Part shown: piece after piece, positions 19,797-23,500 of the stretch
Position numbering within the stretch: position 1 is the first letter of the stretch
Layout: each line of letters opens with the position of its first letter
Assembly (NCBI RefSeq): GCF_009834915.1
Contig: NZ_WVHS01000001.1
Coordinates: forward strand, 558,001 to 622,000
Length of the DNA stretch: 64,000 nucleotides
DNA from: Hufsiella ginkgonis
GTDB taxonomy: Bacteria; Bacteroidota; Bacteroidia; Sphingobacteriales; Sphingobacteriaceae
Direction: 5' to 3'
Program-made: the position numbers and the translations under genes
The notes under the pieces: model-generated
The model's input: only the letters and a program-made list of their open reading frames with translations
Told to the model about the DNA's origin: nothing
Database searches by the model: none

Positions 19797-20585
19797 TTAT
19801 TTTTTTAATTGTTCCACAAAATCTGCCATGGCGGCGCCGGGATCTTCCTGTTTCATAAAGTTCTCCCCGATGAGGAAGCCGTTAAACCCTGCAGACTTCA
19901 GATCGCGGATAGTTTGCACATCGCTGATGCCGCTTTCGGAGATCTTGAGGAACTGGCCGGGGATCGCTTCAACAAGATCGTAAGAATGTTTAATATCCAC
20001 CGAAAAATCGGCGAGGTTGCGGTTATTCACACCGATGGCGTCGAGGTCTTCGCAAATGCTGCGATCGAGCTCTTCGCGGTTATGAACCTCCAGCAGTACG
20101 TTCATGCCAAGGCTTTTCGCCAGTCGGGCAAATTTGGCGATCTCGGCAGGCGTGAGGATGGCGGCGATCAGCAGGATGATGTCTGCACCAAGCGCCCTGG
20201 CTTCCACTACCTGGTATTCGTCGATCATAAAGTCCTTACGAAGCAGCGGGATGGCGTTTGCTCCGCGTGCTTCCACCAGGTCGCGTTTCTTGCCGCCGAA
20301 AAACTCGTTGTCGGTAAGTACCGACAAGGCCGAAGCGCCCGCCCCTGCATACTCCTGCGTTACTTTCGCCACGTCCGCGCGGTTATTGATGATGCCCTTT
20401 GAAGGTGATGCCCGTTTAAACTCGGCAATAATGCCCGTCCGGCTTGTATCCAGCATAAAATCCCGCATCGAATAGCAGGCATGCTGGAAAAGCTCACCCT
20501 CTTCGAGCCTCGATACCGGTACCCGGAGACGGGCTTTCGAAACCTCATCGCGCTTTTTAAGCACTATCTTATCTAGTATGGTCAT
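19797..20585 (-). CDS. trpC: Indole-3-glycerol-phosphate synthase
   Basis: 262 residues, single-domain TrpC without the TrpF fusion of enterobacteria. IIAEFKRASPSKG (52-64), the LRKDFMIDEYQVVEARA strand, LLEVHNREEL, IGVNNRNLADFSV and SESGI are the TIM-barrel catalytic and phosphate-binding loops. It converts carboxyphenylamino-deoxyribulose phosphate to indole-3-glycerol phosphate. In this operon it follows trpG directly; no trpD lies between them. Confidence 0.95.
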   Translation of the reverse strand: MTILDKIVLKKRDEVSKARLRVPVSRLEEGELFQHACYSMRDFMLDTSRTGIIAEFKRASPSKGIINNRADVAKVTQEYAGAGASALSVLTDNEFFGGKKRDLVEARGANAIPLLRKDFMIDEYQVVEARALGADIILLIAAILTPAEIAKFARLAKSLGMNVLLEVHNREELDRSICEDLDAIGVNNRNLADFSVDIKHSYDLVEAIPGQFLKISESGISDVQTIRDLKSAGFNGFLIGENFMKQEDPGAAMADFVEQLKK

Positions 20586-20669: not shown

Positions 20670-21236
20670 TTACCCCTCCAGCCAGTTTTGTATAATCACC
20701 CTGCCGTTTTCCGTAAGTACCGATTCCGGGTGGTACTGTACGCCGCGCACGTCGAGCGTTTTATGGCGCAGCGACATGATCACACCATCAACATCCGTTC
20801 CGGTAACCTCCAATTCGGCAGGAAGGTTTTCCGGAGACACCGCCCAGGAGTGATAACGCCCCACGTTGAACTTTTCCGGGAGTTGCTGGTAAAGCACCTC
20901 ACCGGGCTGTGTAACGTTGAGCATGGTGGCCCTGCCGTGTACCGGGCGGGAAAGGTTGTAGAGGCTTCCGCCAAACACTTCGGCCATGGCCTGCATACCA
21001 AGACAAATGCCGAGGATGCTTTTGGACGGCGACCAGGTACGGATCACGTCCGGCAGCAGGCCCGCTTCCGAAGGGATCCCGGGACCCGGGGACAGCAGGA
21101 TCTTGTCGAAAGGTTCAATATCTGCCAGTGCAAATTTATCATTTCTCCATACCTCGGCCTGCCGCCCGCACTCATGTAGGAGATGTACCAGGTTAAAGGT
21201 GAAGGAATCGTAATTATCAATGACGAGGATTTTCAT
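20670..21236 (-). CDS. trpG: Anthranilate synthase component II (glutamine amidotransferase)
   Basis: 188 residues, a class I glutamine amidotransferase. NYDSFTFNLVHLL at the start, LLSPGPGIPSEAG, the nucleophile elbow LGICLGMQAMAE (Cys near residue 79) and the His-Glu pair GVQYHPESVLTE near the end are all present. It supplies ammonia from glutamine to TrpE for anthranilate formation. It could also serve PabB. A palindromic hairpin separates it from trpE. Confidence 0.93.
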   Translation of the reverse strand: MKILVIDNYDSFTFNLVHLLHECGRQAEVWRNDKFALADIEPFDKILLSPGPGIPSEAGLLPDVIRTWSPSKSILGICLGMQAMAEVFGGSLYNLSRPVHGRATMLNVTQPGEVLYQQLPEKFNVGRYHSWAVSPENLPAELEVTGTDVDGVIMSLRHKTLDVRGVQYHPESVLTENGRVIIQNWLEG

Positions 21237-21324: not shown

Positions 21325-22728
21325 CTAGATTTCTACTGCCATTTCCATCGCTTTGCGAAGGGCCATGATCTTGTTATTTACTTCGTTAAGCTCACTTACC
21401 GGGTCTGAATCGGCAACGATGCCCGCGCCCGCCTGGTAGTGCAGCACGTTATTGCGGCTCAGGAAAGACCGGATCATGATGGCGTGGTTAAAGTCGCCAT
21501 TAAAGCCCATATAACCGATGGCGCCGCTATAAAAGCTCCGTTTGCTGTTCTCGAACTTGTTAATGAGGGTCATTGCCATATACTTGGGTGCACCGCTCAG
21601 GGTACCTGCCGGGAAGGTATCGCCCACCACGTACAACGGATCGGCGGTTTCCTGGAGTTTGCCCGTAACCTTCGATACCAGGTGGATCAGGTGCGAATAA
21701 TACTGCACTTCTTTAAACGCTTCCACCTGCACTTCGGTACAATGGCGGCTCAGGTCGTTACGGGCGAGGTCTACCAGCATTACGTGCTCGGCGCTTTCCT
21801 TGGGATCATTTTCCAGTTGTTCGGCTAGCTGCGCATCGAGTATGTCGTTCCCGGTACGTTTAAAGGTACCCGCGATCGGGTAAATTGCGGCCGCACGGTT
21901 CTTAATGGTTAACTGCGCTTCCGGCGAAGAGCCGAACAGCTTAAAATCGCCATAGTCGAAATAGAAAAGATATGGCGAGGGATTAATGGAACGCAGCGCC
22001 CGGTATACGTTAAACTCATCTCCCTGGAACGAGCGCGAGAACGCCCTCGACGGCACGATCTGGAACACATCGCCCCGGAAAATATGCTGCTTAAGGTTTT
22101 TTACCACCTGGATGAACTCTTCGTCGGTAAGGTTGGAGGCTTCTTCGCCTATGGCGGAAAAACGGTATTCGGGGAAATCCTTGTTTTTAATCAGGTAGCT
22201 GATCCGCTCCAGGCCTTCGCCGGCACTGTTACCGGTACCATGCTCAAAAATATACAGTTCGTTCTTAAAATGATCGATGGCGATCACATACCTGTAAATG
22301 TGGTATTGCAGCAATGGGATATCGCGGCCGTTTTCTGCCTGTGGCTTCAGCTTGATATCTTCAAAATACTCGATGGTTTCGAAGGTAAAGTACCCAAACA
22401 AGCCGTCGGAAATAAACTTGAAGGGTTGGGCCTCCTCCTGTTTAAAGCTGTTGCGGAAGACAGAAACACGCTCGTGCAGGTTAAGACCCCGGGCAGAATA
22501 GGATTCGGTGCGCCCATCAGGATAGTATTCCGAAAATGTTTCCCCCGTAAGGGTGATGCCTGCGATCGGGTCGCAGCAAACATAGCTCATGCTATTCTCG
22601 CGGCTGTGATAGTCGGAACTTTCCAGCAGCAGGCTGTTCGGGAAAATATCGCGCAGGCGCAGGTAGATACTTACAGGGGTAGTGGTATCTGCGAGCAGTT
22701 TCTTGTAGTTGGTAGATAACTTGTACAT
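21325..22728 (-). CDS. trpE: Anthranilate synthase component I
   Basis: 467 residues, typical length. The Trp feedback-site motif SLLLESSD lies near residue 32. The chorismate-binding domain shows VPSRAFSR, SPEAQL, YPIAGTFKRTG, EHVMLVDLARNDLSR, GTLSGAPKYMAM and QAGAGIVADSDP. With TrpG it makes anthranilate from chorismate. An unusually clear leader-peptide attenuator precedes it (22861-23028), so expression should follow tryptophan supply. Confidence 0.95.
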   Translation of the reverse strand: MYKLSTNYKKLLADTTTPVSIYLRLRDIFPNSLLLESSDYHSRENSMSYVCCDPIAGITLTGETFSEYYPDGRTESYSARGLNLHERVSVFRNSFKQEEAQPFKFISDGLFGYFTFETIEYFEDIKLKPQAENGRDIPLLQYHIYRYVIAIDHFKNELYIFEHGTGNSAGEGLERISYLIKNKDFPEYRFSAIGEEASNLTDEEFIQVVKNLKQHIFRGDVFQIVPSRAFSRSFQGDEFNVYRALRSINPSPYLFYFDYGDFKLFGSSPEAQLTIKNRAAAIYPIAGTFKRTGNDILDAQLAEQLENDPKESAEHVMLVDLARNDLSRHCTEVQVEAFKEVQYYSHLIHLVSKVTGKLQETADPLYVVGDTFPAGTLSGAPKYMAMTLINKFENSKRSFYSGAIGYMGFNGDFNHAIMIRSFLSRNNVLHYQAGAGIVADSDPVSELNEVNNKIMALRKAMEMAVEI

Positions 22729-22740
22729 GGACGTTATTAC

Positions 22741-22835
22741 TATCAGCTGCCAGCTATCAGCCGTCAGCTTATTAAATTAATTATCAAGTTGCAACTCTTT
22801 AGCACGTTGCAAAGAGCTGATTGCTGACAGCTGAC
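22741..22835. repeat. Palindromic hairpin between trp attenuator and trpE
   Basis: TATCAGCTGCCAGCTATCAGC (22741-22761) pairs, with about 17 of 20 matches, with GCTGATTGCTGACAGCTGAC (22816-22835). An inner CTCTTT/AAAGAG pair and a repeated GTTGCAA word lie in the loop. The structure lies between the attenuator terminator and the trpE start codon. Confidence 0.55.
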
Positions 22836-22860
22836 ACAACTGACCGCTGATTCACAGCAC

Positions 22861-22889
22861 AAAAAAACCCAACGGGTTAGCGTCGGGTT
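22861..22889 (-). terminator. trp attenuator terminator (regions 3:4)
   Basis: On the minus strand AACCCGACG, a six-base loop and CGTTGGGTT form a 9-bp stem (22881-22889 with 22866-22874), followed by a run of T. It lies 28 bases after the leader-peptide stop and 133 bases before trpE. It is the expected stop point when tryptophan is plentiful. Confidence 0.85.
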
Positions 22890-22917
22890 CATCTATCGTA
22901 TAGTTCTTATTTCTTTG

Positions 22918-22992
22918 CTATAAAACGACTATTTCCCGGCGCAGCTGTGCGGGCCACCACCAGATATTGCTTGTATGTAATGCGTTAGTCAT
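22918..22992 (-). CDS. trpL: trp operon leader peptide with three consecutive Trp codons
   Basis: A 24-residue open frame, MTNALHTSNIWWWPAQLRRE then IVVL and TAG. Codons 11-13 (22954-22962) are three TGG in a row, far from chance in so short a frame. CCCGCA right after the Trp codons can pair with TGCGCCGGG (22935-22953 hairpin, regions 1:2), and region 2 (22935-22941) can pair with region 3 of the terminator (22881-22887, 6 of 7 bases). This gives the choice between terminator and antiterminator that ribosome stalling at Trp codons controls. The -7 element ends only 6 bases before the ATG, so translation may be leaderless. Confidence 0.85.
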   Translation of the reverse strand: MTNALHTSNIWWWPAQLRREIVVL

Positions 22993-22998
22993 CGGGCA

Positions 22999-23028
22999 CA
23001 AAAATAGAAAGAAAATTGGATCTGCAAA
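22999..23028 (-). promoter_or_regulatory. trp operon promoter
   Basis: On the minus strand TTTG (23025-23028), an 18-base spacer and TATTTTTG (22999-23006) match the Bacteroidota -33/-7 consensus. The expected start of transcription falls at or within a few bases of the trpL ATG. Confidence 0.7.
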
Positions 23029-23050: not shown

Positions 23051-23500
23051 TTACAGGTGTGTCATAGCGAACAACCCGCGCCCGCTATGGACGATGGCTC
23101 CAATTACTACCAGGAAGGCAAGGGTGTAAAAAATGGCGATGGTGCGGTGTTTTAATGCGGCTACCGGTTCTTTTTTTGAACGGGAATGACCGATGGTGAA
23201 CAAAGCGACGGCGATGATCATCATGGTAGCGTGCTCAACGGTCCAGTACCGAAGGGTCGGGTCTTTCATAGCCGTGCCCATGCTGCCTGTTTGTACCAGC
23301 GGGCTGTAAAAATAGAGGATGAGCCCTACCAGAAACTGCATATGAACAGCGATCATAGCGAACAGGTTGAGCTTGCGGACGCCTTCGCCATAAGCCTTTT
23401 TACCGAGCCAGCCATCGAAGCTGAAGATAATGGCGACAATTACCAGTACCAATACCACATAACGGAGACCTGAATGACTTTCGAGGAGAATTTTGTACAT
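23051..23500 (-). CDS. Four-helix membrane protein, possibly cytochrome-b-like
   Basis: 149 residues with membrane helices at about 12-28, 45-66, 88-103 and 118-137. Histidines fall in or near helices (SGLRYV start, IAVHMQFLVGLILYF, VEHATMMIIAVALFTIGHSR, IGAIVHSGRGLF), a spacing seen in small Bacteroidota membrane proteins related to b-type cytochromes. Haem binding is only a guess. A minus-strand TATTTTTG at 23515-23522 is a candidate -7 element. It lies upstream of the trp operon but has its own promoter and ends before the trp promoter. Confidence 0.65.
   Translation of the reverse strand: MYKILLESHSGLRYVVLVLVIVAIIFSFDGWLGKKAYGEGVRKLNLFAMIAVHMQFLVGLILYFYSPLVQTGSMGTAMKDPTLRYWTVEHATMMIIAVALFTIGHSRSKKEPVAALKHRTIAIFYTLAFLVVIGAIVHSGRGLFAMTHL

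Follow-up and report, generated by a model that had tools for sequence, protein, structure and literature searches.

The trpEGC operon of Hufsiella ginkgonis is very probably controlled by a ribosome-mediated transcription attenuator, whose leader peptide gene, trpL, lies on the minus strand of the 64,000-nucleotide stretch of DNA that was analyzed (the window). Judged by comparison with relatives, the leader open reading frame (ORF), its Trp codons, the terminator, an alternative pairing between regions 2 and 3 (R2:R3) and the promoter spacing are all conserved, and we infer the start site, ribosome loading at the 5′ end, a 1:2 hairpin, the extent of the operon and the response to Trp. An earlier note on the window had proposed a trp leader-peptide attenuator at this place, and the proposal is now supported by Trp codons, a terminator and an antiterminator with compensatory changes, all kept across the family.

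The leader ORF runs from an ATG at 22992 to a TAG (22918–22992; this and all features below are on the minus strand) and encodes MTNALHTSNIWWWPAQLRREIVVL in 24 sense codons before the stop. Its three consecutive TGG codons, the control codons and 5′ part of region 1, lie at 22954–22962, exactly where the earlier note had put them. The frame precedes trpE by 264 nt and is flanked by a promoter of the Bacteroidota type and an intrinsic terminator. The promoter consists of TTTG (the −33 element, 23025–23028), 18 bases, TATTTTTG (a TAnnTTTG −7 element, 22999–23006, with a box at a like distance in relatives), 6 bases and the ATG; its two elements and their spacing are as described before, and it agrees with the TTTG/TAnnTTTG consensus reported for the Bacteroidota housekeeping promoter (PMC6847099, PMC7366714). 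A sigma-70 scan gave no promoter, the expected outcome for Bacteroidota. R2, the 5′ arm of the antiterminator (GCGCCGGG, 22935–22942), lies within the end of the trpL ORF and is delimited by pairing, arm swaps and covariation; R3 (22881–22890), which serves both as left arm of the terminator and as partner of R2, and R4, the right arm (22865–22874), are delimited by terminator calls and covariation. The two competing pairings had been given correctly: CGCCGGG of R2 (22941–22935) makes six of seven pairs with CCCGACG of R3 (22887–22881), with an internal C-A mismatch, and R3 with its flanks (22889–22881) pairs at all nine positions with R4 (22874–22866), one pair being G-U. Seven T (22861–22867) end the terminator, the first two of them also closing the stem. 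The 1:2 hairpin had been placed at 22935–22953, which is roughly right, except that folding pairs the Trp codons and the bases next to them with the left part of R2 (22937–22962).

Downstream, family searches identify trpE (anthranilate synthase component I, 21325–22728), trpG (glutamine amidotransferase, 20670–21236) and trpC (indole-3-glycerol phosphate synthase, 19797–20585), with trpD absent between trpG and trpC. The spacer between terminator and trpE (137 nt) exceeds that of most relatives and carries imperfect, REP-like inverted repeats outside the switch (22735–22855), which have 13 matches in the genome including their own, the 12 others being short and elsewhere. The neighboring gene 5′ of trpL (23051–23500), on the same strand, matched no Pfam or NCBIfam family; trpL and this gene are 58 nt apart, with one TAnnTTTG box in between.

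Taken by itself, the H. ginkgonis sequence is unremarkable. Fold z-scores for the leader were −0.50, −0.07 and −1.54, and 14 of 100 shuffles matched or beat the pairing of R3 with its own R2 region. The z-score of the 1:2 hairpin was +1.57 in H. ginkgonis and averaged −0.85 over 46 representatives (22 of them below −1), which weakly supports such a hairpin across the family. At the gathering threshold, Rfam returned no fitting family in the whole window or in the 20 family loci (of 99) that were searched, nor did any fit around the leader at E-values up to 5; in the search for a T-box or other riboregulator, the best weak match on the leader strand was Phe_leader, at 17.6 bits against a cut-off of 55. 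A genome-wide search for the pattern TTTG-ATG-TGGTGG was too unspecific, with 73 matches in H. ginkgonis vs. 101 for the reversed pattern, although in other genomes the reversed control sometimes gave fewer matches than the pattern. Because single-sequence folding was not significant, the case for an attenuator rests on comparison.

Relatives were found via TrpE, giving 30 loci from the family of H. ginkgonis and 80 named loci (mostly Pedobacter, Mucilaginibacter, Parapedobacter, Sphingobacterium, Daejeonella and unclassified Sphingobacteriales, names by which we take the family to be Sphingobacteriaceae); of these 110, 11 were duplicates, leaving 99 distinct regions upstream of trpE. A leader with clustered Trp, defined as a pair of Trp codons with no more than two others between them (W.{0,2}W), was present in 96 of the 99 (WW in 52, WWW in 38, WLW in 4, WCW and WYW in one each). 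The exceptions have short ORFs at the usual leader position, with one Trp (L018), with one at the usual place and another ten codons on (L022), or with two that are eight codons apart (L030). An intrinsic terminator hairpin is present in all 99 regions; its stem ends 123–146 nt past the leader start codon, the median energy is −16.0 kcal/mol, and none of 138 shuffled stretches (three for each of the 46 representatives) held a terminator as strong as the weakest real one. The conservation check that the earlier note had proposed thus came out in its favor, with Trp runs and terminators this widespread and with both helices covarying. What we have called an attenuator might also be nothing but the ordinary terminator of the upstream gene beside a chance short frame, with no regulation at all. 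The unremarkable single-sequence folding would fit that reading, but the kept spacing, the covariation of both alternative helices, the clustering of Trp codons (96 of 99 relatives) and the Trp-rich leaders found elsewhere in the phylum (39 of 40 regions; see below) make its probability vanishingly small; we consider it ruled out by conservation.

Covariation was measured on an alignment of the 46 representatives. In the terminator helix, 97.8% of cells are paired and six of nine pairs have changes on both sides (reached by 0 of 500 shuffles). For the antiterminator, 74.6% of R2:R3 cells are paired, vs. 27–41% when one arm is slid against the other, and both-side changes occur in 28 cells vs. 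7–11. Its covariation score was likewise reached by 0 of 500 shuffles, which do not keep relatedness; seven of nine pairs have both-side changes and there are 16 pair types, two figures that a slide of +2 reaches too. Joint changes can be read directly: GUCGGG is found with CCCGAC (L016, L075), AUCGGG with CCCGAU (L102, L030), GCGACAAG with CUUGUCGC (L028) and ACAGGCUU with AAGCCUGU (L027). At the position of the H. ginkgonis C-A mismatch, 16 of the 46 representatives have no standard pair. When R3 arms were swapped among the representatives, the native R2:R3 value was −9.67 vs. −8.63, and the native mean was reached by 0 of 5000 permutations, both for the 99 loci and for the 46. Locus by locus the signal is less uniform: the own R3 was better than the mean foreign R3 in only 68/99 loci and 28/46 representatives, and the R3 partner was matched by at most 5 of 100 shuffles in only 41/99. 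The best R3 partner starts 16–30 nt past the first TGG in 96 of the 99 loci. Run unaided on the 46 representatives, RNAalifold returned the terminator only and no antiterminator.

In most family loci R2 lies inside the last codons of the leader ORF and would be covered by a ribosome that has come to the stop codon or close to it. Within Mucilaginibacter all three frames are used to read the R2 bases, giving AAG (L076), GSR (L074) or QPD (L059), so that at R2 it is the RNA and not the peptide that is conserved. This bears on a further possibility, an additional action in trans of the short terminated leaderless RNA or of its peptide, like that of rnTrpL and peTrpL in Sinorhizobium meliloti. The anatomy is the same in that system as described, where a short attenuator RNA begins at the AUG of the leader (PMC7298713), but the C-terminal part of the peptide, encoded by R2, is read in different frames among relatives and so is not kept as a peptide, and we regard an action in trans as improbable.

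We therefore return to attenuation in cis, whose proposed course is as follows. RNA polymerase would start 0–2 nt before the leader AUG, so that a ribosome would load on or next to the 5′ end of the RNA and trail the polymerase. With ample Trp-tRNA, the ribosome would clear the three Trp codons, reach the end of the ORF and cover R2; R3 would then pair with R4, and transcription would end about 130 nt past the AUG. With scarce Trp-tRNA, it would stall on TGG-TGG-TGG, masking region 1 and leaving R2 free to pair with R3, which would block the terminator and allow trpEGC to be transcribed. The classic trp attenuator of Escherichia coli likewise combines Trp codons with competing 1:2, 2:3 and 3:4 helices, and its trpL is leadered, has a Shine-Dalgarno sequence and carries region 2 past the stop codon. 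The family studied here differs in that R2 lies mostly within the end of the ORF and in that the RNA is predicted to be near-leaderless.

The prediction of a near-leaderless RNA comes from the promoter spacing. In 86 of the 99 loci (36 of the 46 representatives), 3–10 nt separate the end of a strict TAnnTTTG box from the leader start codon that follows it, a count in which start codons were picked in favor of a box near 6 nt and for which mononucleotide-shuffled upstream sequence gives an expectation of 1.02 in 99. Under neutral start choice the box is found there in 72 or 80 of 97 loci; among the 71 loci with a single possible ATG, 60 have it. The distance from box to ATG is 5–8 nt in 75 of 84 chosen starts; given that transcription in Flavobacterium johnsoniae is reported to begin 4–5 nt past the −7 box (PMC6847099), the 5′ untranslated region (UTR) of trpL in the family is predicted to be mostly about 0–4 nt, and that of H. 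ginkgonis about 1–2 nt (start at 22993–22994). The earlier suggestion that the transcript starts almost on the trpL ATG is thus borne out as far as the spacing goes, the start site itself being a prediction. Some caution on the weight of this spacing is due, since ordinary ORFs, too, have a box at 3–10 nt fairly often: it was seen in 15 of 50 that have a box within 110 nt, in a control of 267 ORFs of at least 250 codons from 81 stretches, with naive start choice and related loci counted separately.

The same attenuator could instead be carried on a leadered transcript, starting further upstream or reading through from the gene at 23051–23500, with the close promoter secondary. The mapped mRNAs of F. 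johnsoniae and Bacteroides thetaiotaomicron are reported to be mostly leadered, with leaders of more than 10 nt in 87% of F. johnsoniae transcripts that have a probable promoter (PMC6847099) and about 3.7% of B. thetaiotaomicron 5′ UTRs below 10 nt (PMC7366714), and 5.5% of the mRNAs examined in Flavobacterium psychrophilum were leaderless (PMC9723704). Leadered transcripts are also predicted for pheA and his in this family, and 13 of the 99 trpE loci lack a strict box at 3–10 nt. The box in the other 86 nevertheless speaks for a close start, as do the count of only 10 boxes at 14–150 nt over all 99 loci and the single box in the 58-nt gap to the upstream gene, and a leadered trpL seems to us unlikely, a near-leaderless one being preferred. 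In three loci (L057, L061, L062) a TAnnTTTG box lies 16–17 nt before trpE, past the terminator, and might serve as a second promoter outside the control of the attenuator.

The short spacing belongs to trp. H. ginkgonis has a Phe/Tyr leader, MKFNYAYFFGYFYYNSKGRD, before the prephenate dehydratase gene (box-to-ATG distance 12 nt) and a His leader, MPVVFTHHVHFHHRHCGDR, before hisG (33 nt). Each kind was present in 20 of 21 family loci, and in each a strict box was found in 19 of the 20: 8–27 nt from the ATG for Phe/Tyr (pheA; 12–20 nt in 16 of the 19, two at 8 and 9) and 13–51 nt for his (30–51 nt in 18 of the 19). Reckoned from the −7 box, predicted 5′ UTRs are mostly 0–4 nt at trpE, 5–9 at trpD, 7–14 at pheA and 25–47 at his; the longer predicted 5′ UTRs of the pheA and his leaders suggest that a near-leaderless start is a trait of trp and not general to attenuators. 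The Phe/Tyr leader upstream of prephenate dehydratase in H. ginkgonis (L207) shares the design of the trpE leader, its last codons (GRD) holding a copy of the terminator right arm. The His leader seems to be without an intrinsic terminator: none of 19 passed the filter, and none was seen in the 10 regions inspected. Its long 5′ UTR can pair with a stretch before hisG (native mean −11.3 vs. −8.8 swapped, 0 of 5000 permutations), the own partner beating foreign ones in 15 of 18 loci (L157, upstream of hisG in H. ginkgonis, and 17 family loci), and his may be under a different, terminator-free attenuation. Two loose screens upstream of ilvD gave no convincing leader. In another family (L175), an Ile-rich frame with box and terminator lies about 1.2 kb upstream of ilvD.

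In H. ginkgonis, trpD heads a separate trpD-F-B-A cluster (F, B and A recognized from the sequence by eye), which has a Trp leader of its own (L298, L321): MMNNTRYNSWWLPERG followed by a terminator with arms that bear no relation to the trpE ones. From 24 family genomes with a trpD match, 22 loci were taken, two of them not evaluable; 18 of the other 20 have their own Trp leader, 17 of these with a terminator found by script. The −7 box at trpD reads [ACG]ATATTTG and stands 5–14 nt before the ATG. The two loci without such a leader are those of G002 and G026, two of the three genomes that lack clustered Trp at trpE. The H. ginkgonis leaders have three Trp codons at trpE and two at trpD, and the trpEGC and trpDFBA halves of the pathway may be derepressed at different Trp levels. 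G026 and G002 belong to one genus and have no clustered-Trp leader either at trpE (L018, L022) or at trpD (L320, L318); L318 still has the box GATATTTG and a hairpin resembling a terminator, which would fit a switch in decay.

Similar leaders extend across the phylum. Among 247 genomes searched, 68 had TrpE at E-values up to 1e-90; 40 of the 68 upstream regions were taken, omitting the H. ginkgonis family (7), those already sampled (12) and 9 of the 12 most distant. All but one (L252) had a clustered-Trp leader. Of these 39 leaders, 15 have a strict box at 3–10 nt (in six families besides that of H. ginkgonis), 16 have the nearest at 11–40 nt and 8 have none within 70 nt. Some distant members (L259, L258, L260) carry Trp beside other aromatic codons (e.g., FTWAWFWF) and may respond to more than a single amino acid.

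The view in the earlier note that Trp attenuators are best documented in Proteobacteria has to be qualified, as attenuation was already known in Bacteroidota: the motif Bacteroid-trp (RF01692) was listed in 2010 (Weinberg et al., 2010, PMC2864571), and leader-peptide attenuation has been noted in F. psychrophilum (PMC9723704). Like trpL of H. ginkgonis, RF01692 is a Bacteroidota element in which a leader with WWW and then a terminator precede trpE, but its covariance model has no match at the H. ginkgonis locus (E-values up to 5) or in the H. ginkgonis genome, and its gathering cut-off (49 bits) was not reached in the 20 of 99 family trpE loci tested. Among 118 phylum genomes, 10 gave a match, all in one other family and 8 above the cut-off, with stricter filters that may lose weak matches, and the control genome Bacteroides ihuae gave one too. 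By a slightly relaxed pattern, the distance from box to ATG is 16–20 nt in 7 of these 10 loci and 4–7 nt in 3, so that most have a longer predicted 5′ UTR. H. ginkgonis trpL is thus within the general kind of trp attenuator and, by score, outside RF01692, which covers only part of a trp regulator widespread in Bacteroidota.

Leaderless attenuator ORFs are known outside Bacteroidota. In published descriptions, trpL of S. meliloti is leaderless, with an experimentally determined 5′ end at the ATG, and resembles the leader predicted for H. ginkgonis in its leaderless start, the Trp codons, the terminator and the place before trpE(G) (PMC7298713); it is alphaproteobacterial, its start is experimental where that of H. 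ginkgonis is predicted, and the likeness is judged from the description. Leaderless leader ORFs are also described before amino-acid genes in Streptomyces lividans (leuL, thrL, metL) and Corynebacterium glutamicum (ilvL) (PMC8079986, PMC11857589), which differ in phylum, in the amino acids of the cases described and, in some, in having no clear terminator. In the open literature searched, we found no leaderless attenuator described for Bacteroidota, and the putative near-leaderless Bacteroidota version, the trp-specific spacing and the paired orthogonal Trp attenuators on a split pathway seem to be undescribed there.

Attenuation of this kind works only if ribosomes load quickly enough to follow RNA polymerase, and since Bacteroidota mRNAs are reported to lack Shine-Dalgarno sites (PMC6847099), how ribosomes load fast enough to track the polymerase is a fair question. 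A tentative joint reading, which we hold possible but would not favor, is that 5′ UTR length is an operon-specific setting of attenuation, that ribosomes load at the 5′ end at trpE, and that the family runs two orthogonal Trp attenuators. If so, ribosomes on the 5′ end of trpL RNA would lock to the polymerase from the first codon, and the trpEGC and trpDFBA attenuators would sense one tRNA with different numbers of Trp codons. The family combines, genome by genome, a trpE leader predicted to be near-leaderless with attenuators predicted to be leadered, which offers a natural comparison for coupling, by way of 5′ UTR length, and the trpE and trpD attenuators offer a second one, in which one tRNA would be read by two sensors with unrelated stems.
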